DNA of 64,000 nt from Amphirosellinia nigrospora (taxonomy: Eukaryota; Ascomycota; Sordariomycetes; Xylariales; Xylariaceae). The position numbers and the translations under genes are program-made. The notes below the pieces were generated by a model, which was given only the letters and a program-made list of their open reading frames with translations, had not been told where the DNA came from and ran no database searches. The stretch lies in assembly GCA_004123355.1 (NCBI GenBank), contig SCHM01000002.1:992001-1056000 (forward strand), written 5' to 3'. This document shows positions 1-19,049 of this stretch, piece by piece. How positions within the stretch are numbered: position 1 is the stretch's first letter; each line of letters begins with the position of its first letter.

Positions 1-2930
1 GCGATCAAAGCGTTATGGAGCAGAACCGTTGAGTTCTCTACAAGATCGCCGTGTTCGCGTGACGAAAATGATCGAAGGTGGGGGAGCGCAGGAGCTCGAA
101 CAAGACCACAACTATTCCGTGGGAGGGTTTTGTCTCAGCAAAAGAAAAGATTGGTTAACAATCTTGCAGGGGACGGAGGTAGAGCTGTTGTTCTTAGGAT
201 ATGGGAGAGGTAAAGTGGTGTCGGTTGCAGGAGGTGTGTGAGGTGGTCGAGATGGGGAATGATGGCCTGTCACGAAATCGGAATTTTGATGTTGTTCAGG
301 GTTGCTTTTGCTGCTTTTGTTCTGGCGCACCAACCCTGGCCAGTGATATGACGTTGCGTACCTCTCCGGCCCTCTGCCCTGGGGCTAGGCTGGGCTGCGC
401 TAGGGGTACCAAGTAGTAGCTACTAAAGGCACCAGTAACTTGGCCCCGTTTTGGGGTCTGCAACCCCGGACTAGCAACCCAACCCTAAAAGTCCTGACCA
501 GTCTTGTTTGACTTGCACAGACCGACTTCTAAATCTTTATATCTATCTCAAAATAAGCGAATGATAAGAAACAATTTCACTGATCAAACGAGAATGGTCT
601 TAGTGACAACAATACTTTGTGTCATGGTGTGCATACTTGTCGTAACATCATGTACCAGTCAGGTCTTTTTCGAACCCACTGTACTAGTTACTTTGTATTT
701 GGGGTCTGCAGCTGATGGTCTGCGCTAACCAGTCTGGCTGCATGGGGGTTGGTCCAGACAGAATATCAGAGAACAAAGGCGAATTTTATTTGTATGCTCG
801 AAATGAGGCTGGCTTAAACAGTCCAAGTTTAGCATAACACAAGTTGCGGATTATTTCATAATAGGATCATCCCACACTTTATCTTCTTTGCTTCAACGCT
901 GCTTTCTGCTGTTGCATATCGAAGCTTGGTTGCATTGTGCTCCACATAGGAACATTGCTATTCATCTTATTCTCCAACTTCAAACCCGGCTGCATGACTC
1001 GGACATTCGGCTATCAGCATCTTTGGATATCTAGATTTGACTCGTCCATCCTGTATAGTTGATAGCCTCTTGACGGACCTGCCTATCCCTTTCATCGCAT
1101 CGCACCCTCATTTATATTCAGCAATCCACCAAACTTGCTCTACTGGCAGGCAAGGCTCAACGCGGCTCGACCGCTTCTCATGTCGGGGGGTTCATACGGA
1201 GTATCGGTATTACTGATCTAATTCGGCGTGTAACAGCTAAGCGGCTCCTAACGAGACACGGCCTGTAGATGGTGGCGCGTCGTTGGGCTGCGCTGAATCG
1301 CACGAGGCGTTGATTGGGTCGTTCGGTGCGTTTTGGTTACCGCGAGCGACACTTCACCCTCTAAATTTGGCTAGGGTGTCCTTTTTGTGATCGTTAGTAA
1401 TTGTGTCTCAGATGAGCTCAACTGCGCTGCTTCCATCCGGGTGGAACATACAGCCGTTACTTTTCGAATGCTCTTGGCGCTGATGTTTCGCTCGCCCGCT
1501 TGCTTCGAATCAATCGTCGCCTCTTTGACTAGCCTATTTCAATTATTAGGAATCAACTCGTCCACATGGTCTAGCTTGGTAGTCCCCATACGTTTGCATG
1601 AATAAGACGTAGTCGAGAAATATCTATACGCAGAGTTGTTGTTAGTTGGACGCGTCAGGACACGCGCGACATGGAAACTCGTGGGCTTAGCCTTACCATG
1701 ACATCTACGTTCTTGCTCACGTTGCACTTCGAATGGGCCTTGACGATTTTTTTAACGGTCGCCCGCGGGTACATCTTCTGGCCTGGCGCCATGGTCCTAA
1801 ATGTCAGGCTGAAGAAACTGAAGGCAGTTCTAGAGTTGTTGATATGGGCGTCATTCGACTCGAGTATCTGTTTGCTGGTTTAAGATGGAGATAAAGCTCG
1901 AGTGCCCCGCCTGGAAGCTGAGTACCTAACCAATCGGCATTTTATCTCATGTGGGGCGCTGGTTACCCCTTATCTATTCGACGTACCTAAGTATCCCGAG
2001 AGCTTGGGCCAGTCACACATTCATCTCCCCCACTTTAAGCGGCCGGCAGAACGGTTGAACCCCAGATTCAGATGACCTCATCCATGTCGTCCGCCCCTCG
2101 TAGGTGGTAGCCAATCGTACCACATCCTATCGCGGCAAAAGCTATACCCCTACTATCTCCTAAGGAGGTTGCTCTACCCAGCCCAATACACTATGTCTTG
2201 AAGATGTTGTCACCCTACATCTTTTGGAGAATGCTCCAGACGCGCTTAACATGCGTGTAGGGTAGGATATGCTCTAAACACGCGCTTAATCAAAGACTGG
2301 TCGTCATCCTCCTCCACCTGCTCATATACCACCACAAGCGCCGTTTCTCCGAGAGCGCCAAATGAATTCCAATCTACCAAAAATCATGTTATCGCCGTTT
2401 GAAGCTATGTTGGGACACTACTGGCCAATTGGCGTTGTCTCCGGAAGCCATCTTCCGAGCAGACGTCGCTTTATCCCAAACTACAGGCACCGTGCCAAAG
2501 TGAGCAATACCTCAGTAATACTGCATAACACTATACCAGCTGACAGGATATGGAGCGTGACACCAAATTTCCTTGCTCGGCAACTATGCAATATGATGAT
2601 GTCGTATATGGCATACATGCCCAACTTCTGGCCGCTGGACCGCACCTCGACATGACTTCAGCCGCTTTACCTGGCCTTGGCAAAGTTGCGTCCAGCTGGT
2701 AAGGCTGATTTGCCAAAACTCGTGGGTTAATATACTTGCAAGTGAGGAGACGCGTCTGCCTATCAAAGCCATCCAATTACCAAGGCCTAGGTGATAATCG
2801 TCAATGTCGCTACCGAGACAATCGCTGGCCAACACTCATCTCGCGGACAAGGAGTGGCACGCCCTTAGCGGGTAAAAGGCCTTGACCCTCCGTAGGATAG
2901 TTATGTCGAGAATCCTCTTGGGGCTCGGGG
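1..2930. other. Intergenic; no supported gene
   Basis: Only short ORFs (under 100 codons) on both strands, none with a recognisable domain. The stretch from about 2060 to 2850 is less AT-rich and has broken open frames on the minus strand, so it could be an old gene relic, but no family was recognised. A 12-bp palindrome (TAGTAGCTACTA) lies near 413-424. Confidence 0.5.
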
Positions 2931-2938
2931 ACCCCAGC

Positions 2939-2947
2939 TATAAAATA
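2939..2947 (+). promoter_or_regulatory. TATA box of the DOMON gene
   Basis: TATAAAATA lies 77 nt upstream of the ATG at 3024. This placing puts transcription start near 2970 and argues against using the upstream GTG-initiated extension of the same frame. Confidence 0.5.
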
Positions 2948-3023
2948 TAACCGTGCGCACGATCAACTCAGTTGCGTGTTCATCACGCAATTCTTGGTTT
3001 CTTGCGCATATCCTTATCTCGTC

Positions 3024-3730
3024 ATGGGTTTACTTCATTTTGCTGTAGCCATCGTGGCTCTTACTAGAGCGGGCATGGCAGCCCCAGCGGCTCCAGCGGC
3101 GCCATCTGTACAATACTGTGACCCGGACTCGGATGTATGTTACTCCAGCAGTACAGTCGGAATCGCAGCCATCTCCTATAGACTAGCCATCCCGAACGTT
3201 ACCGCTAGCCCGTTTGATATCATACTTCAGATAGTCGCACCCAAGACAGCTCAATGGGCCGGTATAGCCTTCGGCGGACACATGATCAACAACACAATTG
3301 CCATGGCCTGGGCGAACGGGAATACATCGGTTGTCTCATCTCGTTGGGCATCGTAAGCAGCAGATTCCCCATTGCCTCAAGAGGTTAAACTGACCACCCC
3401 TCCTCAAGTGTGCATGAAATCCCCGAACCGTATGAGGCGGCGGAATATACCGTCCTCAAGGGATCGGTCACGAATGAGACGCACTGGACATTGACGGCGC
3501 TCTGCAAGGGCTGCTCCTCCTGGGTCCACGATGGTGGCTCCAAGACAGTTCTCGATCCCACTTCGCCGTCCATCAATCTTGCATGGGCGGCCTCGCCATA
3601 TCCGGTCGGCGATCCGGCTGATAACTACACCATGCTAGGCATCCATTCGGAACATGGTACATTCAATCTCGACTTGGCCGCGGCAAGGTCGGACAATTTT
3701 GATAGTTACCTACAGACCTTGCTAGCATAG
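3024..3730 (+). CDS. Secreted DOMON (cellobiose dehydrogenase cytochrome-like) haem protein
   Basis: Two exons, 3024-3352 and 3409-3730, flank a 56-nt GTAAGC...AAG intron with a CTGAC branch point, giving 216 aa. A signal peptide (MGLLHFAVAIVALTRAGMA) precedes an Ala/Pro linker. The body matches the CDH cytochrome/DOMON pattern: WAGIAFGGHMINN carries the Met expected as one axial haem ligand, and GIHSEHGTFNLDLAAA supplies a candidate His. In CDH this b-type haem domain passes electrons from a flavin dehydrogenase to lytic polysaccharide monooxygenases outside the cell. Here the domain stands alone: no dehydrogenase, membrane helix or CBM follows. The reading frame is intact. The stand-alone redox role is inference; the domain call is strong. 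Confidence 0.8.
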
Positions 3731-4430
3731 CCCAGACATCTTTATGCCGACTACTGTGCCTTGTCTTTATTATTGTGTGAAATAACTGTTGGGGTTTTAA
3801 TTTTACTAGAAACGAATATAAGGCGTTTCTGGCCGCAAAAGAAATATGTCTTTGTTCCTCGGTGTGAATTGGCTATCTTTCCGAACTTTTGTTAGTATGG
3901 TAAATCATATGGAACCCTTCAAGCTAGCTACAGCGCTTAGCTTGAGGGAAACGAACTAACTTGGCTGTTGTTCTACTCACGTCGCCCAGTAGATTTTACC
4001 AAGATAGCATGCCTTTTCAACCAGTTCAAGGTATCACAAGAGTTAAGTCTTCGCCGCGGAGATCAGACACATCACGCAGAAGTAGTTAAGTATACGCTAA
4101 GTCTGGGTTTATTTTATCATGTTGTCTATGGTTCCAGCAAGCGCCACAGGTCTAAACCCCATAAGCAACTATCGACAGTCAGGTCACCCGACTTGACACC
4201 ATTCCAACTTTGCCAGCAGTTACCCGTATCATCCCCCATGCCACAGAACGCATATAGTCAGCTGCAGGTAGTCAAGTGCCCGGCTTGACAGCGTTCTATA
4301 GTGTCGTGGTACAGTGCTACGGTTCTGTTCCGTAATACTCGAGTTCTGTGTCGTTCCGTACCATGCCTATCACCTCCCTGATAGCCATCTACTGCACATC
4401 TTGATCACAGATCCCATGGGTAGGCCGCCG
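3731..4430. other. Intergenic; no supported gene
   Basis: Lies between the 3' ends of the plus-strand DOMON gene and the minus-strand Gly-Arg-rich gene. An open frame of about 106 codons (3968-4288, plus) has no recognisable features. Confidence 0.5.
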
Positions 4431-4436
4431 AGTTGC

Positions 4437-4981
4437 TTACTGCTGACCCGAAGATCCTCGACCGCCGGCGGCACCAGCACCGCGTCCGGCACCGCGTCCG
4501 GCACCGCGTCCGGCACCGCGTCCGGCACCACGTCCGGTACCAGCACCAGCACCAGCACCAACACCAGTACCACGCCCGGCACCAGCGCTGGGTTGCTGGC
4601 CTTGCCCAGCAGTACCTTGCCCACGACCCTGTCCTTGGGCCGGCTGAGCTTGCCCTCGCCCTTGCTGGGCTGGGATGGGCGGTGGTGGTGGCGGGGCCAG
4701 CGACGCCTGGATGATGGCGCCACCCGTCTCGGCGTGACGGGATCCCACCTCGATGAATACTGGAAGATTATCAGTTAGTTGACTGGCGCCTTGACTGAGA
4801 TGTATAGAGTGTTGACGCGAGGAATGTGTCATCATAAATGTATCTATATAGTTGAAAGGAAACGCAAACAACTTACAGTCCCGTAAGTGGGGGGAGTCGT
4901 GCCCTGGGGATCCAGGCGGGCTAGAGCTTGGCGGATCATTTGCCGGCGATTCGCGAGCTCGGCACTAGTGGGTGGTGCCAT
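4437..4981 (-). CDS. Gly/Arg/Ala-repeat low-complexity protein
   Basis: Family not recognised. Exon 1 (4981-4877, minus) starts in good context (AACAATGGCACC) and reads MAPPTSAELANRRQMIRQAL. A 117-nt intron (GTAAGT...CAG) leads to exon 2 (4759-4437). Exon 2 has a poly-Pro run, a Gln/Gly/Pro-rich stretch, then GAGAGAG and five GRGA repeats before the stop. The predicted product is disordered and basic, about 140 aa. The two exons are out of phase by one base; an extra G at the donor (ACTGGTAAGT for ACTGTAAGT) would restore the frame, like other one-base losses in this window. In the other possible phase exon 2 would read an unlikely Val/Leu/Pro/Asp repeat. GR-rich proteins often bind RNA, but no RNA-binding domain is seen. 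Confidence 0.5.
4477..4570. repeat. 12-bp minisatellite followed by a 6-bp repeat, inside coding sequence
   Basis: Five tandem 12-bp units (GCACCGCGTCCG, the last with one change) span 4477-4536. A run of ACCAGC-type 6-mers follows to about 4570. Both unit lengths are multiples of three, so copy-number change would keep the reading frame of the minus-strand gene. Confidence 0.9.
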
Positions 4982-5129: not shown

Positions 5130-8100
5130 CTGTTTGTTACAGTATATAACAGGACATCGAGGAATAGTTAAATCTAACTCACGCAAAGTAAATCGGGAAA
5201 TACTTAGGTAAAGAAACCGTAAGTATATATAGGGCCACAAAGAGTTAAGTCGTGAGACTTGACAACGTTCTACCTTTTGTAGTGTGAAGGTGTCGTGCTC
5301 GGCTCTGGTGGGTGATGTTGCTATTGGTGAGAGAGAGGAGAAAAGAAACGTAGATTGTGGGAGGCAAAGGTCACTTAAATAGACGGTGGGGAGGAGCGAA
5401 AGGGCAGCACAGTTTAGAGTGAAATCAGTCACTCAGGTACGTGTTGGTTTGCTTGCGCGGCTTCCTACTCTGAGTGTTCGCTAGTTTGTTGTTGGGTGGC
5501 CGGTTTGGTGCTGGTAAGTATGCTGTTTCCTTATTCTCTTAGAAATACCTAGCCAAACTTTTTGATTGCCCCATAATGATACCTAGCAACGCCGGTTATA
5601 GGAATACTTATTGGCTTGCACAAGCAACGTAGGTACACAAGGACACCTATTGACTATGATAGGTGCAGAGCTACATATGGCGTCTGAAGGGAAATCATTT
5701 CTACAGGTATGTATTTCTTTAGTTTACTGAATAACAACACAACTTAGAGGGTGGCCGATGTAACGGTAACGATGTTGTTCAACAGTGACTAACCAAAACA
5801 GTTATACTTTAAATAATAATAATAAACAGATAACGGTTTGGTTTTCCCTCTTGCACTAGAACGCTGGCTAAACTAAGGCACTCATTGAGTAGGTACGTAT
5901 CTACGTTCATTTTCAGTCTTCAAAGTCCAACTCAATTCAAAATGTGCAAAAGAAATCAGGCTTCTTATTTTGTGAAGTTTCTTATTTGTTGCATCTCTGG
6001 CTTCAACAAACACGCCAAAATATTGTCTGGAATCGACACACCTAATTTCCTCTTTGTGACACAAGTAGCATAGTGTGGCATTACGCTCCTTGAAAACAAC
6101 TGACATCGCACTTGTACAACTAAGGAAGACCTGTTAGCTGTGATACTTAGATACTTCAAAATTGTAATAATGCTTCATGCTCAGAGATAACCTACAATGC
6201 CAGGTCTTATACCCTCCACTCTTGATTGGCTAGAGACACAAACCTGCCATCACATACAGCCGGTCGGCTTTAAAATTCTTGCATGAAGGCATTCAAGAAT
6301 ATATAATCAACTTTATAGCTAAGCAGTACTTACAACTTGTGTACATGTGTAGTAGATGATGTTGTAGTTATTTAAACACAAATAGCAATAGTAATTATCG
6401 CCTATTTCAAAGAGCACCATACACGATATACTTACCTAGGTACTTGTAGAGTCAGGCGATGTAAATAAAGAGAAGTCCTGGAATTACCCCGCCCTGCCAT
6501 ACCAAGATTGATAGTAACTAAGTGCCTTCTCAAGCAAAAGTGTTTTGGCCGTTCTCGGTAAACAACATAGCTGCCACAGGCGCCAGCAAAGATAGTGTCC
6601 ACTTAGTTCCTTAGATGGAGTCACATTAATGCCGGTACCAGGGGAGTTGCAGCGAGAGTCGAAGTACGCAATAAGCAATTGAAATAACTATCAAGGCGCA
6701 TATTGTGACAGACAAGCTTGATTATCGGTAGAGCTGTTACCGATTGACTATAAAGAGACCCTGTACCCTACTTCCCGTTTCTCTAAAACAGAGACCTTGA
6801 CTAAGGCGACACCATGAAAAAAATGTATGATTATTGCGATCCCGTATTATGTTTTAGACACAGTCATGAGACTGTATACTCAGCTTGCTGGTGTTTTCAG
6901 CCATTATCGTTCACACCTATTATCCAGCATGACACGCTAGCTAACAAGACCGACTACGTTCGCAAGGAAGATAAAAGCTTTTGGGCACGCATAACTAGGC
7001 AAGCTATAGCCGTGGTTCTTCTACTCCACCGCGTCGCTGTGGTTGATGTGAAAACTAAATTGTCGGCGAGAGAATCATTGTTGTCGAAGCTTGGCCGAGG
7101 AACAGTCAGGGTGCATACTATTGTTACAATTCTCAAACTTGAGGGTGGACTGGGGATTCCTGGGGATACGAGTTTGGGAGTCGTTGTTTTGGCGGAGTTA
7201 CAACGATTCATTCTCAAAAGTGTGGAATAACAGACAATATAAAGCGAACCGACGCACTTTCTAGCAGTGTATTTATGTAATTTAAGATATAAGTTTTCGA
7301 TACAAATAATAATATTCTAGAGAACATTATAAATACTAGAAATCATCCGGACTATATATCGCCCATCTATCCTACGTAGGTCCACTTCTCCGTGAACGAA
7401 TGAATAATCAACAGGAACAGTTTAGGAAATTACACGGCACGGGAATATTGTATTAGGTATCTTTGAGACTTCGTTTCTTGGCAGTTTCAATATGTAGTGC
7501 CCTGCAGCCAATTGCGTTTGTTCTAAGTAGTCTTTATCGCGCGAAATCCTCGATAGTCTGGCTATATACAGCATGCTCTTTATTATACTGTTCCAAGATG
7601 TCTTACAACCAGGTGGAATCTCACGTGTGCGAATCAGACCTGCTTGCCACATCGTGACCAGATGGTTGGTTGGCAACGCTGCTGGGATATAAAGTGGAAC
7701 TAATACCCTTGTACTAATACCAAGACATGGCCAGTCCCTTCACCACCCCTTCACCCTTCACCTCGAGTACAAGTAGTGCATCCAGTTATGCGCAAAGAGT
7801 GTATTAAACTTTGCCAAATATTCCTATGCTACTTTCTTTATGGGTGATGTTAAAGAAGGTTGAATATCCATACCCTCTGGTCGGATTACATTGGTGTGGG
7901 CTAGCCCCAGGCAGCCATATTTTTATACTGTTGCCTAATCAAACAGAGAAAGTCTGCCCAACCATATCTAATTACATCACTTAAGCTCCAATAATAGTTA
8001 AAATTGTCCCGTGGGTAGCTTCATTAAGTGCACTTACTTTGTTTAACCTTAAAGTCTGTGTTTCCAAGCCATCGCTATGGAGATATTAACCTAGACCCGA

Positions 8101-8490
8101 AAACTTCCCCATAAGTAACCTCATTATTCGCATGTAGATATTACAAGTGGGCTCCAGATTGAAGTAGATAAGATTACCCTTGAAGTTTGTTATCGTAATA
8201 TTGACGCATATGGGGGCGTAGCAGGCTAGGACCGAATAGCTAACTTTAAACTACTGCCAGGGATGTAGATTTATACAGAACTCATCCCTGGTACACCTAT
8301 CATACGCACGTAAGCCCAAATCCAAGCAAGTGATATGGTATGCCAAGTCTCACAGCCCAGCCAAGAGAGCCGCTAGCTGAAATGAAACTAGGAGTCCTAG
8401 GATGAATTCAAAGCTGATTACACTTGGAATCAAGTGAACACTCCATGTTTCGAATAATTCTCTTACTGTCTGTCCATTGACAGACCACGG
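5130..8490. other. Long AT-rich intergenic stretch, no supported gene
   Basis: About 3.3 kb with TACCTA-type runs (for example 5540-5700 and 6430-6445) and an AAT microsatellite near 5813. The longest open frame (6814-7230, plus, 138 codons) has poor protein character and a competing frame on the other strand. Confidence 0.5.
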
Positions 8491-8503
8491 TGTTGACAAC
8501 ACG

Positions 8504-9650
8504 ATGTTGCCAAACTCTCCTCGTACTAGACGTGCGCTAAAGTATCTGATCCTGAGTCTATCCATTTTTATCATCTTGGCTCTCGTGGTCCGCCTTTACC
8601 ACTTTGCCAATCTATTTGCTTTCTTCAAAGGTCATTCAGGCATACTTATTACGCAACGCGAGATACTTGACGATTCCCTTGCTCGCGAGACTCGAAACGA
8701 CACAGCCGTCCCCGTCATTCCCAAGGATACTACACCAGGTCTACCACAACTGGTCTGACCCAGATAATACTGTCATCTCTCTACCTGAGGACTGGGCCAC
8801 CGCGCAACGGTCCTGCATAGACCTCAATCCTGACTGGGAGTATAAGTTATGGACCATCAAAAACTCCCGCGAGTTCATCGAGGACAACTTTTCCTGGTTC
8901 TTATCCACTTACGACAACTATGAATTTCCTATTCAACGTGTTGATGTAATTCGATACTTCGCGCTACGCCATTTTGGCGGTATTTATATCGATCTTGATA
9001 ATGTGAGAGCGCTTCCTTCACGACATTCCCTTCAACTCACTCTATTGCTGTGAGCTACCGGAAAAACATGAATGATGATTAACGTGCTTTACACAGGGAT
9101 GTCGACAGAGTCTCGAGCCCATCACCTACTTCCCTGCTTTTACCACGGACGGAGGACATGGTACCTTGAGTAACAACATCATTGGAGGCCAGCCCGGCCA
9201 CCCCTTTTTCGACCTCCTGACCGAATCCTTGATACCGTATAACTGGAATTGGATTCTGCCGTACATCATCGTTAGCTACACGAGTGGTCAATGGTTCGTA
9301 ACGGCGATATGGGAGCAATATCATCGGCTACTCTCCGCTGACGGATCTGTCAATGGCTTCGAAGGCGATAGTTGGGGGCCACTCCATCATGTCCTAATGG
9401 ACATGCGACCCGGCCAACCTGACCCTTACATTTTTTGGACACAGGAACATGGTGGCTCTTGGGACCAGTGGGATAACGCTTGGTTTGGCTGGATTGGCTC
9501 CCACATCAATTTGGTGATTGAGTATGTTGTCGGGGAATCGTGGTGACGGCGCTACTAATCACAAGTTGCGTTCTCGGCTGGAGATACTATGCGGCGAGGC
9601 AAAACCGTTCCAAGGGCTACAGCATAGTGGGGGTTCAGGAAACAGTATGA
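8504..9650 (+). CDS. GT32 family glycosyltransferase (OCH1/SUR1-like), two frameshifts
   Basis: Type II Golgi-type glycosyltransferase related to mannosylinositol phosphorylceramide synthase subunits and Och1. The N-terminus has one hydrophobic anchor (YLILSLSIFIILALVV). The catalytic region reads ILHQVYHNWSDP, then RVDVIRYFALRHFGGIYIDLDN with the DxD motif in YIDLD. A 94-nt intron (9003-9096, GTGAGA...CAG) separates it from GCRQSLEPITYFPAFTTDGG and NNIIGGQPGHPFF. A C-terminal hydrophobic helix (VVTALLITSCVLGW) ends at a TGA at 9648-9650. Two one-base events break the frame: an extra G at 8725-8726 before ILHQ, and a missing G in the GGGG run at 9532-9535, before the last helix. Everything else is well kept, so assembly error or a very young pseudogene are both possible. 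Confidence 0.75.
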
Positions 9651-10000
9651 TTAGAGGTTAGCCGTCAGGTGACTAAGACTAATACAGCATGAATAAAGAA
9701 TTCACGAAACGGTACATATGAAAGCCCAAACGAATTATAACCTACCTATATTAACACTACAGCTCATCTAGCGTTGATTTAGTTGGAGAGGCGAGATACC
9801 AATTATTCCTAAAAAAGAACTCAGCGTTACGTTCTGTCCCTACTCAGGCATATTCAAAGCCAAAATGCATGCATGATATGAAAGCTCGCCAGTATTGATC
9901 GTTACAGTACCTAAGTCTACTTATTGAATGATATGAAATAGTAAAAAGTAAACAAAAAGTACACGGAATGTTGTTGAAGCATTATGAAGAATGGCAAAAT
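9651..10000. other. Intergenic; no supported gene
   Basis: AT-rich spacer between the glycosyltransferase and the tRNA-Gly gene; nothing recognisable. Confidence 0.6.
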
Positions 10001-10070
10001 GCATCAGCCGTGAATCGAACACGGGGCCCATCGATGGCAACGATGGATTTTACCACTAAACCACTGATGC
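10001..10070 (-). tRNA. tRNA-Gly(GCC)
   Basis: Read on the minus strand it folds as a cloverleaf: acceptor GCATCAG pairs with CTGATGC, the anticodon stem CATCG/CGATG holds loop TTGCCAT with anticodon GCC, and the T-arm contains GTTCGATTC. There is no intron. Confidence 0.93.
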
Positions 10071-10950
10071 TTAGTAATTTGCAACTAATTGGATTGTACC
10101 AAATGCCCCCTCATATTCACTTGCGCTAAGTCAATTGAACAGCAATTCCATAAGACAAGGTATCGCCGTCGCGTTTAGCTACACGAATACTTAGCTCGGC
10201 CATATTAGAGCGCAAGTATAATCTTGGCCACAATAAGGTTTGCGGAGGCGAAGACGCTAATGCATGGGAGTTGTGATAGGCTTTTATGGGCGGCGCGCTA
10301 CAGATATTAGTGCCCTATTGCATGCGTGCTGTTAAGCTTTTGGGGTTGGGCGTCGATACCAAATCGCAAGTGGTAATGAACTGCATCTGGGAATCTCAGA
10401 CGATATTTTCTATTTCTGGACTCGTTACAATAATACAAGATCGCTAGCAGCCAAGCTAGCAGTTACGGGGTTGCGGGGTCGCGGGCGCCGTTGTATGTGA
10501 CTGTCTACGAGTTACCGAAGCCATACTCATAGCTTCGAGTCACAGTCTTGGCATTGTATTCGCTCTATGCGGAAACCATTGCAGGCGCCCAATCCAAGTA
10601 GGGGTTTTCACATTGACCGTGATCTCAAGAAACAGTAGGTAACGGTGTAGGTTCTCGATAGACATAAGAGTTATTCAACCTCGTAAAACATGCACGGTCT
10701 GTCGGAACTCACAACTTCCTGACTTCTACTAATCTTAAACTAATACTTTCGATTGCCTTAAGACATCTGGAACATCACAATTTTTATTCATCCTCTCCGA
10801 CCATGAAGTAGATAATGATAATGGCAGGATTTCGAAGTCGAGAGGTTTAGGCAGCTGTCCACTAGTGCGGAAAGCGGGACTCTGCAATCCCTTGTTGGTG
10901 GCACGTCTAGCTAAACGATAGGCTGCGAAGCAACAACAGGGGTTATACCA
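10071..10950. other. Intergenic; upstream region of the rvt gene
   Basis: No gene recognised. A TATATATA run at about 10952-10960, some 115 nt before the rvt ATG, is a candidate TATA element. Confidence 0.5.
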
Positions 10951-11072
10951 AACATATATATACATTCAGCTGAAAGCTGATCTTGTTTACTGATGATTGT
11001 GATCCGTTCCTTCTCTTCTCAAGCTTCTTTTGGAATACACTTTTGCAGCATCTCCTGACAACAGCAGCAACA

Positions 11073-13952
11073 ATGGCGCAGCCTTCGTCAGTCCTCTCTC
11101 AGACCATGCAGTCTATCTCCTTGACTAAGATGCGTGAGCTCGAGAAGCAGAGAGACAGATATGAATATCGGAAAAATGAGGTGCTGGCTGCGGCTGAGAA
11201 GTACCCTGACAATATCCGCGAGAGGATCACTGAACTTCTTCGCGGCGTGAAGAGTCTCTGTGAACCAGAGCTGGCGCTGGATACAAAAGTCTTGAACATC
11301 GATGTGTGGCTCCAGCAGTCCGCCTATGATGCTTCGATGCCTTTCCAAATGCTTCAATCATATGAAGCACTACTCCGTTCAAGACTGGAAGTGCAGAGTC
11401 GGAAACTCAGCATCGGTCACTTATGGTCTCGTCTTGTGACCGAATGGATGAATTCGACAACGCCGATAAGCGAAGCGGCCAACTCCAGTGATCAGTCGGA
11501 CGAAGTTGATCGCCAGGAAAAGCGTCTCAAAGAACTCTGTGAGAAGTTCGAGGAGGTTGTCTTCACGCCGCTCGAGACCGACGAGGCCAGAATCGAACAG
11601 TACATCCAGGGCCTTTTCAGTGGCGATGAAGGCAGGAAAGCGCTGAGGTCGATAAAGTCTCAGATTCAAAGGCATGAAGAAGTCTTGTTTGGTAGAAAGG
11701 AGCCATTCAACTGTGATGTCCTGGGCTGGTGCATCAACGGACTACTGGCTGAGGATCTTCTCAGTGATGAGAAGCAAGCTATTCTACGCGAGTTTCTCGA
11801 AAACCCAGTGGTCCTCAATGAGATCGCTGATGTTTTGAAATGCGGTTCGCTGACTTTGACAATTGGTCGTGGGAAGCTGGTGAACATGGCATACCAGTTC
11901 TGCCACGGCCACAGCTGAATGGAAAGTATCGAATTTGGATGGACGAGGATGTCTTACAAGCCATCTTCATCCATTACGTGGGCGTAAAGAACTGTGTCGG
12001 CCTTAAGGCCACTTTGACTCGTTTTTTGACCCGCCAAGATATGACGCATGAAGACGGAGCGTGGAATTGGCGGGCGGGCAAACACATGACCAGTGTTGAC
12101 CGTTTAAGATACGAGTATTCACTGGAATGAGGTTTGTTCATAATGCAGGAGTGGATAACACCCGTTCGGTTTTGTTTCGAGAATCCTTCTTCTGTCACAG
12201 CTTCCGGCCTCGGAGACAACGATTGGCAAGAATCGGGCATATGTCAATGATGGCAATGTTGAGGAGGATGACGAGGAGAAAGAGAAAAATGAGAGAGCGC
12301 CCGAAAATTTCAATGTTAAACAGAAGCTCCTCCGTACGCTGGCTACTGAGTCAATAGTGCATCGCACATTATACGGAGAGGCTGCAGTCATCCAGTCCGA
12401 TCTTCAATGGTACGCTACCGGACTCTCACACACAACCATCTTCGCAGTCATGCGCTTCCTTGGATTCTCCGAGAGGCTCGTGTCGTTCTATAGGAAGGTC
12501 CTCCAAGCGCCCCTGAACATGGTTTCGGCACCAGGGGGGGAGCCTAGTGGCGAGCCTAGGATTCGCCAGCGGGTGTACCGATGGCTCACGCGCCGGAAAA
12601 ACTCACTGGCGAAATGATTTTGTTCATCATGGACCTGGCCATCAACAAAGCGACAGGTATGTTGCTATATCGGCTGCATGATGATCTCTTTCTATGTGGC
12701 GAACCTTCGCGCTGTGCTCAAGCATGGAAAGCGATGCAAGAATTTGCAGACGTCATGGGTGTTGAGTTCAATAAGAATAAGACCGGTTCAGTCTATTTAA
12801 CGAACCCTGAGAAGGGCCGCGATGCTGAGATAGGGGCATCAATGCCTGAAGGCGCCGTTCGGATTGGCCACCTCCTTCTAGACCAAGATAGCGGAGAGTG
12901 GGTTCTTGATCAAGAGCAAATTAGTGAGCACGTTACTCAGTTGCGAAAGCAACTGGGAGCTTGCAACAATATTCTTGACTGGGTCAAGACATGGAATAGT
13001 TGCATTAGTCGCTTTTTCAGCCACACACTCGGAGAACCTGGGTATTGTTTTGGTCTCAAACATGTGGACAGCGTGCTAGAGACATACCAGCGTATTCAAA
13101 GGGTGCTGTTCAAACCTGCAGATCAACCCCAGGACGACGGGGATCAGACGACGGGCAAAGGTAGTGTCGTAAACTACCTCAAGTCTAAGATCAAAGAGCG
13201 TTTTGGGGTTCCAGAGGTGTCAGATGCATTTATCTTTCTCCCTGAAAAAATGGGTGGTTTGGGCGTCAAAAATCCATTTATTCCGTATCTTGCTTATCGC
13301 AATCGGCTTCTCGAAAGTAAGCCAGAGTCGTCGCCCGATGGTATTATGCGAACGTACTGTAAGTCCCCTACATCAATCCGATATTCTCATCAATTCATTA
13401 GGTTGCTTGCTTCTTCCGTACAAGGTTAGGAACCGTATAAATATAGGCTCTAACTGTTTCGCTACAGTAGAAAATGAGAAAGAGGAGTACGAGGAAACCC
13501 GGAAGGCGCTTCAGAGACTCAGGAGCACCGAGGAGCGTCTGAATCGCCTCCGCGGATTATATCCGGAGAGCCAGTGGTTCGAATATGTACGATTAATCTT
13601 GGACAAGGCGCTCGTCCCCGGAGAAGATGACGATTTTATGAGTTTTGAGGAGTACACGCGTCATCGCGAATCGACCAGTCGCCTTCTCAGTGTGGCCTAT
13701 AATAAACTCCTTGAAGTCCCTAGTCAGAAGGGTGCAAACCTGGAGTTATTTGTGACAGAGGCATTATCGCGCGCCGGAATCAAGGATTGGGGAAATCCCA
13801 CAGTTCTTCAGATTGAGTGGGTACTACAACTGTATCAAGATGAACTCAAGGAGCGCTGGGGTGGCTCCAAGCTTGTCGACGAGAAGTATTTGCCACTGGG
13901 ACTGCTGACTATGATGAGACGTAAAGGTGTGCAATGGACCATGATACTATGA
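11073..13952 (+). CDS. rvt: Domesticated reverse transcriptase, rvt family (frameshifted)
   Basis: Cellular reverse-transcriptase-related protein of the rvt class found in many fungi, usually single copy and not part of a transposon. It starts ATGGCGCAGCC with a coiled-coil N-terminal third (11073-11830). The polymerase part includes GKYRIWMDEDVLQAIFIHYVG, DLQWYATGLSHTTIFAVMRF, PRIRQR...MAHAPEKLTGE, and LLYRLHDDLFLCG, whose LHDD corresponds to the catalytic xxDD motif C. After a 109-nt intron (13359-13467) comes the C-terminal domain, ending LPLGLLTMMRRKGVQW near the stop. Full length would be about 920 aa, normal for the family. The frame is broken near 11836 (one base lost), between about 12125 and 12195 (net shift, with TGA at 12128) and near 12570 (one G lost from a G run). 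No LTR, integrase, RNase H or gag is present. The family call is strong; whether the gene works here is open. Confidence 0.85.
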
Positions 13953-14141
13953 GTGAGGGCATCTGGGGAAGTGTCTACCTAATAATCTTAGGAAGGGTAC
14001 AGCAGACATGAAGCTAATCAGGGAGAGATGATTGTAGCTTGTGTCATAGCATCTCGTAAATTTTCGACAATACTGACAATATGGTGTTGGGTCTGTGTTT
14101 TGGTTCAGGTTATATCTTGACGTAGATGATAATATGTCCTG

Positions 14142-15911
14142 TCAAGTAGCTTGCACATCGAAAGCAATCTCGACAAGCACCGCCTGTCGTGGACGGTTGT
14201 GATACGCCAACTGTGAGTGAGCAGCTACAATGAAGTGTTGCTCATGATCGTAGTGACTCCAATTGTCCGGGTCTGCCTCGAAAGGCCACACCTCACAGCT
14301 CCGATCGTAAAAGTCTTCATCTGGGTTAGGAACAAGGCGGCACATCCAATTGCACGCGATAGAGTCGTCAGACTGCGCTAGATAGATTCCAATTCGTTTG
14401 CCGGTTCCTAGTGTCTGCGCCGTGCTTGATGTTGTGCTTGAACTCATATCGTCTACATTTTCTTCGAAAACAATGAGTCCATGAGCAAAGGGGTGACCAC
14501 TTGTTCCGAAGGGCGGGCAGAATAGGCTGGTGTCTTCTTGAAGGGCTCCAGGCGGGTATGAGCCGAGAACGCGATAGTCAGCCAAACCCGCGGGAATGTC
14601 AGCATAAAGGTAGACTTTCGCACGTCGTCATCTGCAAACCCTTTCATGACGCTATCAAGGTCAGCTCCAAACGCAGGATACACCCGAGTGAAGTAGGTCA
14701 CAAGATAGCTAGTGACAGTTGACGTCGTCAGATTCTGGAGTTCGTACTGGACTTCTGTCTTAGCATCTTTCAAGGGCCTCTTAACTAGACTGATCGGATC
14801 ACGAGCACGCATGTATGTGTTATCTTTCCCTAGAAGCGGCAAACAAATTTGGAGTAAACGCGAGCCGTTACTGGTCTCTACTTCGAAGCAGTTCAGCACG
14901 GCCAAAACCCAGAACGGAGACAAGGTACGAATTAAGGGTGTTGACAACGATAAGCCAGCGTTGGTAAAAAGGAATGGCGGCGTTAATCTGGCTTCAAATC
15001 TTGGCTGAATTTGTTTGGAGTTGCAGAAATGCCTGGGATGATCTGCTAGCAGAGAATCTCGTGAACTAAGCGTATCAAAGGTGAAGATACTGTGGTCATC
15101 TGAAATCTTGATGATCTCCTCTTGTAGACGTCGGAACGCCCTTCGCCCCTCACCGTAGAGAAGAGGCATGTTAATGTTGAACAGACCTAGCAAGCTGTAT
15201 GCGATGTCTTCTTCCCGAGTAGTAGATCTGAGTCCGGCCCATGACATGCGCTGGGCAATGCTGTACTCATGTAAATTCTTTTCTTTGCATAAGCAAAGCT
15301 GATCTATTCCCGTCACAAGGGAGATGGAGCTCGCCAACCCTTTTTTGGTCCCGAGTTCAACCCAATCACGCGTGAAAAAGATGATATAGTCGGGAGCTAG
15401 CAGCTCCTGCAGAGTCCAGCCCCGGGTGAACCATCTACTGCGTTGGAAGACGTCCAGTATGTTGACCTGACTGGGAAGGTCACTTCGTACATCTTCCAGG
15501 AAAACATAGCAACCTTTGCATTCTTATACCAGGTGTACATTGAATTGATGGCCTCGGATAGCTCGGCTGAGCTCGACTTGTCGATGCAGATGGTATCAAT
15601 CCATACGTATGGAAGCCCATCTTGACGCGCACGCTTGCAGGTGGATAGAATCTTAACAAACCCTGCCTTTCTAGACTTCTTCAGGCGGCTCAAGCGAGAA
15701 TTCCACTCCCTAAAGGACGCCTCGCTTTCACCCCATGTGTGCGACAAGACTGCAGTATCATGAGTGAGTGAAATAGAAAATTGGGGACTCTGTTTGGGGA
15801 TTTTGAGTACTCCAACAAATAAAAGTATGATAGTTACGTACTGGCATATTCCGGGGCTCTCGAGGCTGTGAACTCCTCTATTCGGAGACTTCTAGAGTTC
15901 AGTAGTCGCAT
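14142..15911 (-). CDS. HET-domain protein (heterokaryon incompatibility)
   Basis: Exon 1 (15911-15842) encodes MRLLNSRSLRIEEF..EYA; a 92-nt intron (GTACGT...CAG) follows, and exon 2 begins ILSHTWGESEASF. Together these give the classic HET start (RLLN...YAILSHTWG). Further motifs are GLPYVWIDTICIDKSSSAEL, INSMYTWYKNAKV, CYVFLEDV, SRWFTRGWTLQELLAP, ISLVTGI, SIAQRMSWAGLRSTTREEDIAY and LLGLFNINMPLLYGEG. The roughly 250 aa C-terminal part is not recognised. HET domains trigger cell death when unlike fungal individuals fuse. Two frame breaks, each fitting one lost base, occur at about 15512 (between NAKV and CYVF) and about 14597 (a C run before AGLADYRVLGSY). With these restored the protein is about 560 aa, without a NACHT or WD40 region. 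Confidence 0.85.
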
Positions 15912-16458
15912 TGTTGGCAACTTTACTCCTTTTAGGCACTTCCCGCCGCCAAGAGGCTTCAAGGGGCTAGTTAGTCCCCGGTCTAGATGGAGCCGAGCAT
16001 TGAGATATCAAAGGAATCTGGCCGATGCTGCGAAGTCAAGGAAACAATTTTCTGCAAGGTGTCTCAGTGTTTCATAGATGCTATTATAATCATCGCAAGG
16101 TACTGTAGATGACCCTTTTTTGATGAGCATTTCATAACAAGCCACATTCTAACCTAATTAAGTTATCCGGGAGACACTAGCGCTATTAGATGACGTAGTG
16201 GGGCATCTGAAAATGACAGTCCTAGGCCTATTCATGATCAAGTAGATACTTGAACCCTCTTGCGATGAAGCACAAGCAGTCAGTTTATAAAAAGGTAAAG
16301 CCTTCGTATTTATCTGAATAAATTCTTATATTCATCTTCAACTGGCAACCTCCATGTCACCTTTCACACTGATCACATCTGTGCTGGGAGACAATATCTC
16401 TCTAAGTCAATGTCCATGATGAGAGAGTCCTGTCTACCTATGTAGTTAGCAATGAAAC
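15912..16458. other. Divergent intergenic region between HET and SWS1-like genes
   Basis: About 550 bp between two divergent start codons (HET on minus, SWIM gene on plus). No further gene; it presumably holds both promoters. Confidence 0.6.
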
Positions 16459-17352
16459 ATGGCGACGACAACTCCGACCCCGCGAGATATCCTAACATCC
16501 CTCATCTCAAGCCTCCCATCCATCCCTATAGCCGACGATGCAACTACAACAGCCTCATTTCATAGACCTTCAAACAAGCATGTCGGTGGAAACGCACCGA
16601 CCAATCCATTTAAGCGCATACCGTCAGCTTATCGTCCCATTCTCACAACTCTCCACGTTCTATACCCATCCACATTACTGCCAGCACTTGACCTGCTAGA
16701 CCGACGACTCGTGACACGCGTGATTCTCCAGCAAGAAGATGCTGATTCACATCTCACCAACGTCCGGGATGCCACCATACCCTCGGCTCAAAAACCCCCG
16801 CCGACAGCAGGATTCATGAGGGCACCAAACCAGCACCTCTCTACCATCTAGTCCGCTCCGCGGAGCCGCAATCCCACCGGCGACAGCACGCGACGTCTTC
16901 AGGGGGCGGGTCTACATCGTGCGTCTCGAGAGCTGGAACTGCACATGCGCCGCCTTCGCATTCTCCGCATTCCCGCCTCTGCCTCCTCCCATAGTCTCGT
17001 CTTCCGGATATCAGATATCTCCCGCAACTCACACCCCGGCAGAGGATGAGACACTGAACAGCGACGAAGCCGCAACCCAGCCATGGAATTCGGCGGGCTG
17101 AGCACAGATGGGAAAGACGAAACGGGAGGTGTGCCTTGCTGCAAGCACCTCCTCGCCTGCGTGTTAGCGGAAAGATGGGACGCGGTGCTAGGCGAGTATA
17201 TGGAGGATCGTCTGGTGGGTAAGGAGAAGGCGCTGGTCTGGTTGGGGATCTGTGAGGTCCATGGTATCATGATGCTTATTATCGGGCTGACTACAGATTT
17301 TAATGATGCACATAAGGAGAACATGGATTGTTCTAATAGGGGCGCTTCGTGA
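16459..17352 (+). CDS. SWIM zinc-finger protein, Shu2/SWS1-like
   Basis: The N-terminal helical part contains YRPILTTLHVLYPSTLLPAL and LLDRRLVTRVIL. The SWIM motif is visible as WNCTCAAFAFSAFP followed, after a Pro/Ser/acidic linker and FGGLSTDGK, by VPCCKHLLACVLAERWD. This fits CxC...CxHxxA, the invariant form in the Shu2/SWS1 family. These proteins work in Shu complexes with Rad51 paralogues in homologous recombination. The gene lacks introns but changes frame three times in the direction of lost bases: at about 16800-16830, near 16865, and near 17085. The C-terminal end is uncertain; the last frame stays open to TGA at 17350-17352. The family call rests mainly on the SWIM motif and its setting. 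Confidence 0.65.
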
Positions 17353-17872
17353 ATATTAGGTAACCTGAGTGTTTACATGAGTAGCGGATAGGGGCTGGCT
17401 GGATGAGCATATCCGCGCTACGTATATTATTACAATTGCTCGCCTGGTACATATGCCCCAGAACTCAGTGTAAAGTCGTCGTATCACACACGACAACTAG
17501 TAAGTATCGAGAATAAGTATCCCAAACAAATATACCTAGAACACACGACACTACGGCTATCGAGTACTAAGGACTTTGTTAAGCTGCATCATGAGTCGGT
17601 CTGTATCGAGGGGAGAGCTCTCCTGGAGTTTCGAATCTCCTCTGTGAGAGAATTACACGTTAGTAATGCCGGGGCGAATTTAGCTTGTGATTCATTATGC
17701 ATGCTTCATTCATCGTCTATTAGACTGGAAGCTGCCCGTCGCAGCCGGGATGGCTTCCTGGTCTTATTTAATTGAAGCCAGGATATTATACACAGCCTCT
17801 GTGATCTTGAGCGAGGCTACAATTAGTGCTTCGCTTGGACGTTCTATTGCCTGTCAATTCGCATGCCCTAGA
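17353..17872. other. Convergent 3' intergenic region
   Basis: Lies between the stop of the SWIM gene and the stop of RPN8. Probable 3' UTRs and terminators; no gene recognised. Confidence 0.5.
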
Positions 17873-19049
17873 CTAACCCCGTCTATTTCTTCTTTCTTTT
17901 TCGGGGCCTTTGTCCCCGGCATCACTACCAGAACCATTTGCACCAGCTTCTTTCTTCTCTTTTTCACTCTTCTCCTTTTCGGCGGCGGCCTCTTCTTTCT
18001 TCGCTTCCTTTTCCTCTTGCTGCTGCCTGTTTTGGATTTTGTTCTCGATGAGGTCGTGGAAGGCGGTAATCGCTCGAATCAAACTGCTGAGGTAAATAGC
18101 CAACAGCTGGTCGTTCGTCTTGACACTCATGGCGTAGCCTAGCTCACCAACGTTGGAGCCCTTGGACTCACCACCAGGCTTCGGTGTAGATAGGTTAGGC
18201 AGGAGGTTGAATATGTCCTGCAGGTTGCCGAGAACAGCGTGGTTCACTGGTAATTGTTTGTCCTGAACTTTTTGGAGGTATGTCTGGATCTCGCGCAATC
18301 GTAAATGCAGTCCTTGCAACGACTGCAGCTGGTTTGTGATACGGGTTGATAGTGTGCCGATGGCAACATCACGGATATCTCTAAGAAGGTGCTCGACTCC
18401 TATTTCTTCGGCTTCTTCGGCCTCGATTGTGGAGGGTGTGTGTACGAATGTCTTCGATGTGGTTGTACCGTCCTATAGTCACAAACTGTCAATCGAGCTC
18501 ATGGAGATCCATATTGAACAAGCACCTACATCTTTAATCTCCTCCACGGCGAAATATGCATCTGTTGGTACGCCAGACTCCTTAGGTTGGACGTCAATGA
18601 TGACAAGTAGAGGGTTCGGTGTGTATCGCTTGAAGAGTTCGTTGATCTCTAGGTCGGAAGCGCGGAGCTTGGGTCCAGAGTGGTACCAGCCTATTAACTT
18701 TTCTCGTGCGTTCACCTTCTTGAACATGTCGTTCATGTTCTCCACATAGTTATGGTCGAGGAACCAAACCGAGGGGTCATCGCTCTCTTCCTCGAACGGC
18801 ACTACCAAAGGTCCAGGTTAGCTAACTGGGGCTACGCGGAAATGCGTCTGGGGTGCTGTGGCGAACCTGCGAAACTATTTGATACCTGACATTCTTGCCA
18901 TCATTCTGCCCTAGCAACACGCCTACAACGCGCTTTCGTGTCCCCTTGGCTGCCCGGTTGAAGTGGTCTACGACGGATAATAGAACGAGGGGTGCGACGG
19001 TGACATTTCTGCTGACGAACGAGAGCGTCTCAGCAGTGGTGGTAGGCAT
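17873..19049 (-). CDS. RPN8: 26S proteasome regulatory subunit Rpn8 (MPN domain)
   Basis: Non-catalytic MPN subunit of the 19S lid that pairs with Rpn11. Exons: 19049-18867, 18801-18530 and 18472-17873, with introns of 65 and 57 nt. Key stretches are [73 protein letters not shown] and [20 protein letters not shown]. The JAMM metal site (HxH...SxxD) is absent, as in all Rpn8 proteins. The C-terminal part has the helical [15 protein letters not shown] region and a Lys/Glu-rich tail. Exon 1 is one base short: a G restored in AGG-TATCA gives the invariant VRVSNSFAVPFEE across the first intron. Because RPN8 is essential in yeasts, this break is best read as an assembly error unless another copy exists. 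Confidence 0.95.

Follow-up and report, generated by a model that had tools for sequence, protein, structure and literature searches.

Genes of the rvt class form one of the few classes of cellular reverse transcriptases (RTs) besides telomerase, and their role is still under study. An rvt-type gene of the fungus Amphirosellinia nigrospora, spread over several reading frames in the genome assembly, raises the question of whether it is a living cellular gene, a gene recently lost, or a fragment of a mobile element. It lies on contig 4 of a 48.1 Mb genome assembled in 11 contigs, within the 64,000-nucleotide stretch analysed here (positions 992001-1056000, hereafter the window). Positions given without a contig are those of the window.

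Anatomy of the Gene

The gene occupies positions 11073-13952 of the forward strand and comprises about 920 codons, distributed over five successive frames and one intron. It starts with an ATG at 11073 and ends with a stop codon at 13950-13952. Expressed as position modulo 3, the N-terminal piece is read in frame 0, followed by frames 2, 1, 0, and 2, and the last exon is again in frame 0. The frames as read contain no stop. An initial annotation had described a stand-alone RT gene with the motif LYRLHDDLF, separated by three or four one-base shifts from a protein of about 920 residues. The frames are indeed present as described, and the shifts number four.

Exon 1 (11073-13358) harbors all five frames and the four one-base register changes between them. 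Its N-terminal part (11073-11837) lies outside the RT core and was described in the initial annotation as a coiled coil, an N-terminal feature of rvt proteins. The RT region begins at 11837-12127 with a segment assigned to the fingers by its order, which displays an EDVLQAIF block also found in another, diverged rvt-like gene, located on contig 5 (see below). Positions 12128-12398 hold a motif 2-like stretch, read in frame 1 at about 12136-12213, and then an acidic linker ahead of motif A. The motif A aspartate is encoded at 12399-12401, within SD-LQW. The palm, the thumb, and the C-terminal part of the RT, also assigned by motif order, span 12566-13358 and include motif C, RLHDD (12671-12685), within LYRLHDDLF. 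Motifs A and C, which supply the metal-binding aspartates, were assigned by their customary spacing and by a profile match (RT_UG37, see below). A histidine stands at +10 from the motif A aspartate, which we take to be the canonical RT spacing. Between the motif 2-like stretch and motif A lie about 200 bases that include an acidic run and, judging from motif order, may correspond to the rvt "loop 2a". This loop is an insertion between motifs 2 and 3, according to PMC5718144. An AlphaFold2 model of the isolated piece P0003 reached a mean pLDDT of 41.3.

The intron (13359-13467) is 109 bases long, in phase 1, with clean GT-AG borders (GTAAGT...CTAAC...CTACAG), and connects both flanking frames. 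Exon 2 (13468-13952) encodes the C-terminal domain and the stop.

Position of the Register Changes

The four register changes are located near 11838, near 12127, at about 12180-12215, and at about 12567, and each is a step of -1 (mod 3). A tblastn comparison with the contig-5 gene runs in frame 0 as far as 11837, in frame 2 at 11891-12124, in frame 0 at 12210-12572, and in frame 2 from 12572 onwards; the short frame-1 stretch between 12124 and 12210 is not shown by this comparison. When aligned separately, however, frame 1 of 12125-12215 falls at the expected place of the contig-5 protein with a score of 41, a value reached by one of 1000 shuffles, whereas frames 2 and 0 of the same bases do not align (469 and 819 shuffles of 1000 scored as high). 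The middle change is therefore read as a pair, since the frame-1 stretch passes an alignment test of its own. For the same reason, an intron at 12115-12200, for which GT and CACAG signals exist, was rejected as a substitute for a frame change.

Segmentation of exon 1 by codon usage, which is independent of homology, gives a weak signal (net score 1.6 or -13.4 at its two penalties). It detects three changes, close to 11910, 12224, and 12580, two of which correspond to single changes and one to the middle pair. The longest homopolymer runs in the four break stretches are 4, 3, 2, and 3 bases, so that the breaks do not lie at long homopolymers. Runs of at least four bases occur in one of these four stretches and in one of six examined control breaks (out of 18, see below), compared with a fraction of 0.19-0.27 among random stretches of 22-31 bases; no homopolymer enrichment is seen in this sample of ten.

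Family Assignment

The PADLOC profile RT_UG37, a bacterial profile of 778 positions, matches four of the five pieces of the gene in collinear order over positions 3-676. The matches cover profile positions 3-219 (5.8e-5; piece P0005, in the N-terminal part), 220-266 (1.3e-3; start of the RT region), 336-434 (2.2e-4), and 442-676 (1.1e-26; the palm-to-C-terminal part, which gives the best match). A chance match is excluded because four of five pieces fit a single RT profile in order, and by the codon-position identities given below. Since the N-terminal part and the RT are covered in the same order, bacterial relatives of the same architecture are found in RT_UG37, and we infer that the UG37 group represents rvt in bacteria. 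Within the A. nigrospora genome, five candidates scored against RT_UG37 yielded three matching stretches, one in the window gene and two in the contig-5 gene. The profile also matches three of 14 control genomes, the same three that are matched by Pfam RVT_1, which indicates that it sees ordinary RTs as well. RVT_1 itself matches 32 places in the A. nigrospora genome; neither rvt-like gene is among them, and none of the 32 is among the RT_UG37 matches of the genome.

Other searches returned little. Pfam gave no match for the five window pieces or for four pieces of the contig-5 gene. NCBIfam gave distant matches below its cut-offs, and PHROGs nothing better than E 0.05-0.08. The last exon has no match in the four libraries tried (Pfam, NCBIfam, PADLOC, and PHROGs). 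In a PDB sequence search, P0003 had no match at E <= 10, while P0002 and A5 had a single hit apiece, at E 1.3 and 0.96, respectively, that we attribute to chance. None of 32 and of 59 pattern matches in the genome contigs searched for bacterial relatives was confirmed, nor any of 31 in viral contigs, and tblastn against plasmids and phages gave no match.

The window gene resembles the rvt genes described by Gladyshev and Arkhipova (2011) and the Neurospora crassa RVT in being a stand-alone RT with a long N-terminal part. It also shares with them what may be a stretch inserted between motifs 2 and 3, a C-terminal domain, an intron, and no visible mobile-element parts, a likeness drawn from their descriptions. 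In contrast, the A. nigrospora genome holds two rvt-like genes instead of one. Compared with RT_UG37, the collinearity of four pieces is the common feature; the profile differs in being bacterial, in belonging to a collection of defence proteins, both known and candidate, and in leaving the fungal last exon unmatched.

An RT core with motif A and RLHDD is also what a retrotransposon (LINE, LTR, or Penelope-like) would carry. RVT_1, however, is silent at this locus despite its 32 matches elsewhere in the genome; P0003, P0004, and P0005, the three pieces used as queries, occur in a single near-exact copy; no direct or inverted repeat of 30 bases or more was found in 6000-19000; an intron is present; and the N-terminal part fits the bacterial RT_UG37 profile. 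A retrotransposon origin is hence regarded as very improbable. Telomerase reverse transcriptase (TERT) is, like the window gene, a cellular RT, but contig 6 holds the genome's only match to the telomerase RNA-binding domain (PF12009; E 2.3e-43), and an RVT_1 match lies no more than about 1.5 kb away from it. TERT is thus a separate gene, which refutes this identity for the window gene, and we give almost no credence to its being TERT or another known host RT.

Altogether, the match to RT_UG37 and not to RVT_1, the location of TERT elsewhere, the absence of repeats in 6000-19000 and of near copies, the intron, and the stretch ahead of motif A fit the rvt class. Membership of this locus in the stand-alone class is thereby supported, with outside support from RT_UG37, and the proposal of the initial annotation (an rvt gene, neither a LINE or LTR element nor TERT) holds.

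Some features of the other RT loci of this genome may be mentioned. Contig 9 (1.33 Mb, less than 3% of the genome) contains 15 of the 32 RVT_1 matches and is perhaps a transposon-rich or accessory contig. Five RVT_1 places on contigs 1 and 4 have identical scores and open frames of 757-1075 residues, and are probably young copies of one retroelement. The match to the TERT RNA-binding domain (contig 6, 1195772-1196233) has two TAG codons inside the matched stretch.

Intact Gene or Recent Loss

Frame breaks in conserved genes of the same assembly served as a yardstick. Matches to a Cpn60/TCP1 profile (25) and to an HSP70 profile (20) were grouped into 10 loci each; a small number of weak single matches among them probably represent genes other than true chaperonins or HSP70s. 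A change was counted where adjacent matches differ in frame and no more than 30 bases of DNA separate them, leaving no room for an intron; there are 25 control junctions, and seven with larger, intron-sized gaps were left out. Breaks were found in 11 of 20 loci (6/10 for the chaperonin profile and 5/10 for HSP70). The chaperonin loci contribute 10 changes over 13,750 bases and the HSP70 loci 8 over 11,651 bases, together 18 in 25,401 bases or 0.71 per kb. This rate is rough, since breaks close to either end of a profile escape detection. Less certainty attaches to four of these changes (one with a 284-base overlap, the others with gaps of 29, 17, and 10 bases). Stops inside the matched stretch, attributable to introns, overshoot, or error, occur in 11 of 45 control matches (8/25 chaperonin and 3/20 HSP70). 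It is very unlikely that so many essential chaperonins are dead, and most of the control changes are thus best regarded as errors.

The window gene exhibits four changes in 2,771 bases (1.44 per kb, about twice the control rate), where 1.96 would be expected (Poisson P(>=4) = 0.136). All four have the sign -1, as do 14 of the 18 control changes. The contig-5 gene has at least three changes, with P(>=3) = 0.35 at the control rate. Nothing clearly sets the window gene apart from the control loci in its frame breaks.

These figures bear on the two fates between which the initial annotation had left the choice. Its "live gene hidden by assembly error" is supported by the chaperonin and HSP70 loci, which this assembly breaks in a like manner. 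Its "very recent loss" is left without support, because these loci show the same kind of break, roughly half as often per kb and in most cases also of sign -1. We therefore hold with good confidence that a cellular rvt gene lies here, that the living fungus carries it intact with about 920 residues encoded in two exons, and that its four register changes are one-base assembly errors. Loss of rvt in this strain through several one-base changes would account for four frame changes within one gene, and the doubled break rate leaves room for a contribution of real decay; moreover, rvt is non-essential for Neurospora growth, as stated in PMC3520738. Against a true recent pseudogene stand the same breakage in the chaperonin and HSP70 loci, the frames that read without a stop, the retention of both catalytic motifs, and the frame breaks of the second rvt-like gene, and we judge it distinctly unlikely. 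The product of the intact gene would probably be active. The case illustrates how assembly errors can mimic gene loss, and the frequency of frame changes in conserved genes calls for caution with any pseudogene claim from this assembly.

Proposed Function

In PMC10680173, rvt proteins are reported to perform non-templated polymerisation and to need intact catalytic residues for stress relief. Induction of rvt by translation inhibitors is described in both PMC10680173 and PMC3520738. By analogy with Neurospora RVT, the product of the window gene would act as a template-independent nucleotidyl transferase, probably in multimeric form. Catalysis would depend on the metal-binding aspartates, which are present in motif A as well as in motif C, and the gene would be switched on under inhibition of protein synthesis or amino-acid shortage. 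The cofactor of Neurospora RVT is Mn2+. Because the window gene retains the catalytic residues, a stress role shared with Neurospora RVT is most likely.

A Second rvt-Like Gene on Contig 5

A diverged second rvt-like gene, missed in the initial annotation, is found on contig 5 at 2630749-2633707 (1750-4708 of the fetched stretch 2629000-2636500). The two genes share 36% identity in the N-terminal part; the pieces that follow reach 42% and 34%, the palm and thumb 34% and 39%, and a 40-residue stretch near the end of exon 2 reaches 40%. In coordinates of the fetched stretch, its frame changes from 1 to 0 near 2600, from 0 to 1 near 3817, and from 1 to 2 at about 4260-4440. Identities at the three codon positions are 0.50, 0.62, and 0.31 over 704 codons, with saturated third positions, which indicates that the two proteins diverged under protein-level constraint and is silent on recent selection.

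The genome is thus not single-copy for rvt: the window gene itself is present in one near-exact copy, but the contig-5 gene adds a relative at 34-42% identity, depending on the piece. Rvt genes are described as single-copy in PMC10680173 and PMC3520738, and a cyanobacterium paper mentions three paralogues, in a passage where "rvt domain" appears to be loosely used. Because copy number characterises a genome and not an individual gene, the window gene is kept in the rvt class, with this departure noted.

The catalytic motifs of the two genes differ. Motif A is SDLQWYATGLSH in the window gene and SVFESWNSLLPH in the contig-5 gene, in which the Asp is replaced by Val, and motif C is RLHDD in the former and RLHED in the latter. 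Being located inside a stretch read in one frame, these differences are not explained by one-base indel errors. Loss of the motif A aspartate normally abolishes RT polymerase activity, and the contig-5 gene may be a catalytically dead paralogue of the window gene. Inactive paralogues tune other multimeric enzymes. A two-gene rvt system is conceivable, if doubtful, in which an active window enzyme would be joined in a mixed multimer by its ancient, diverged contig-5 paralogue as a dead partner or regulator. The candidate paralogue without catalytic residues provides a testable lead.

Next to the rvt gene, the reverse strand of the window carries a HET-domain gene (14142-15891) convergent with it. 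PF06985 matches one of the two pieces scanned, and by eye this gene is split across overlapping frames.
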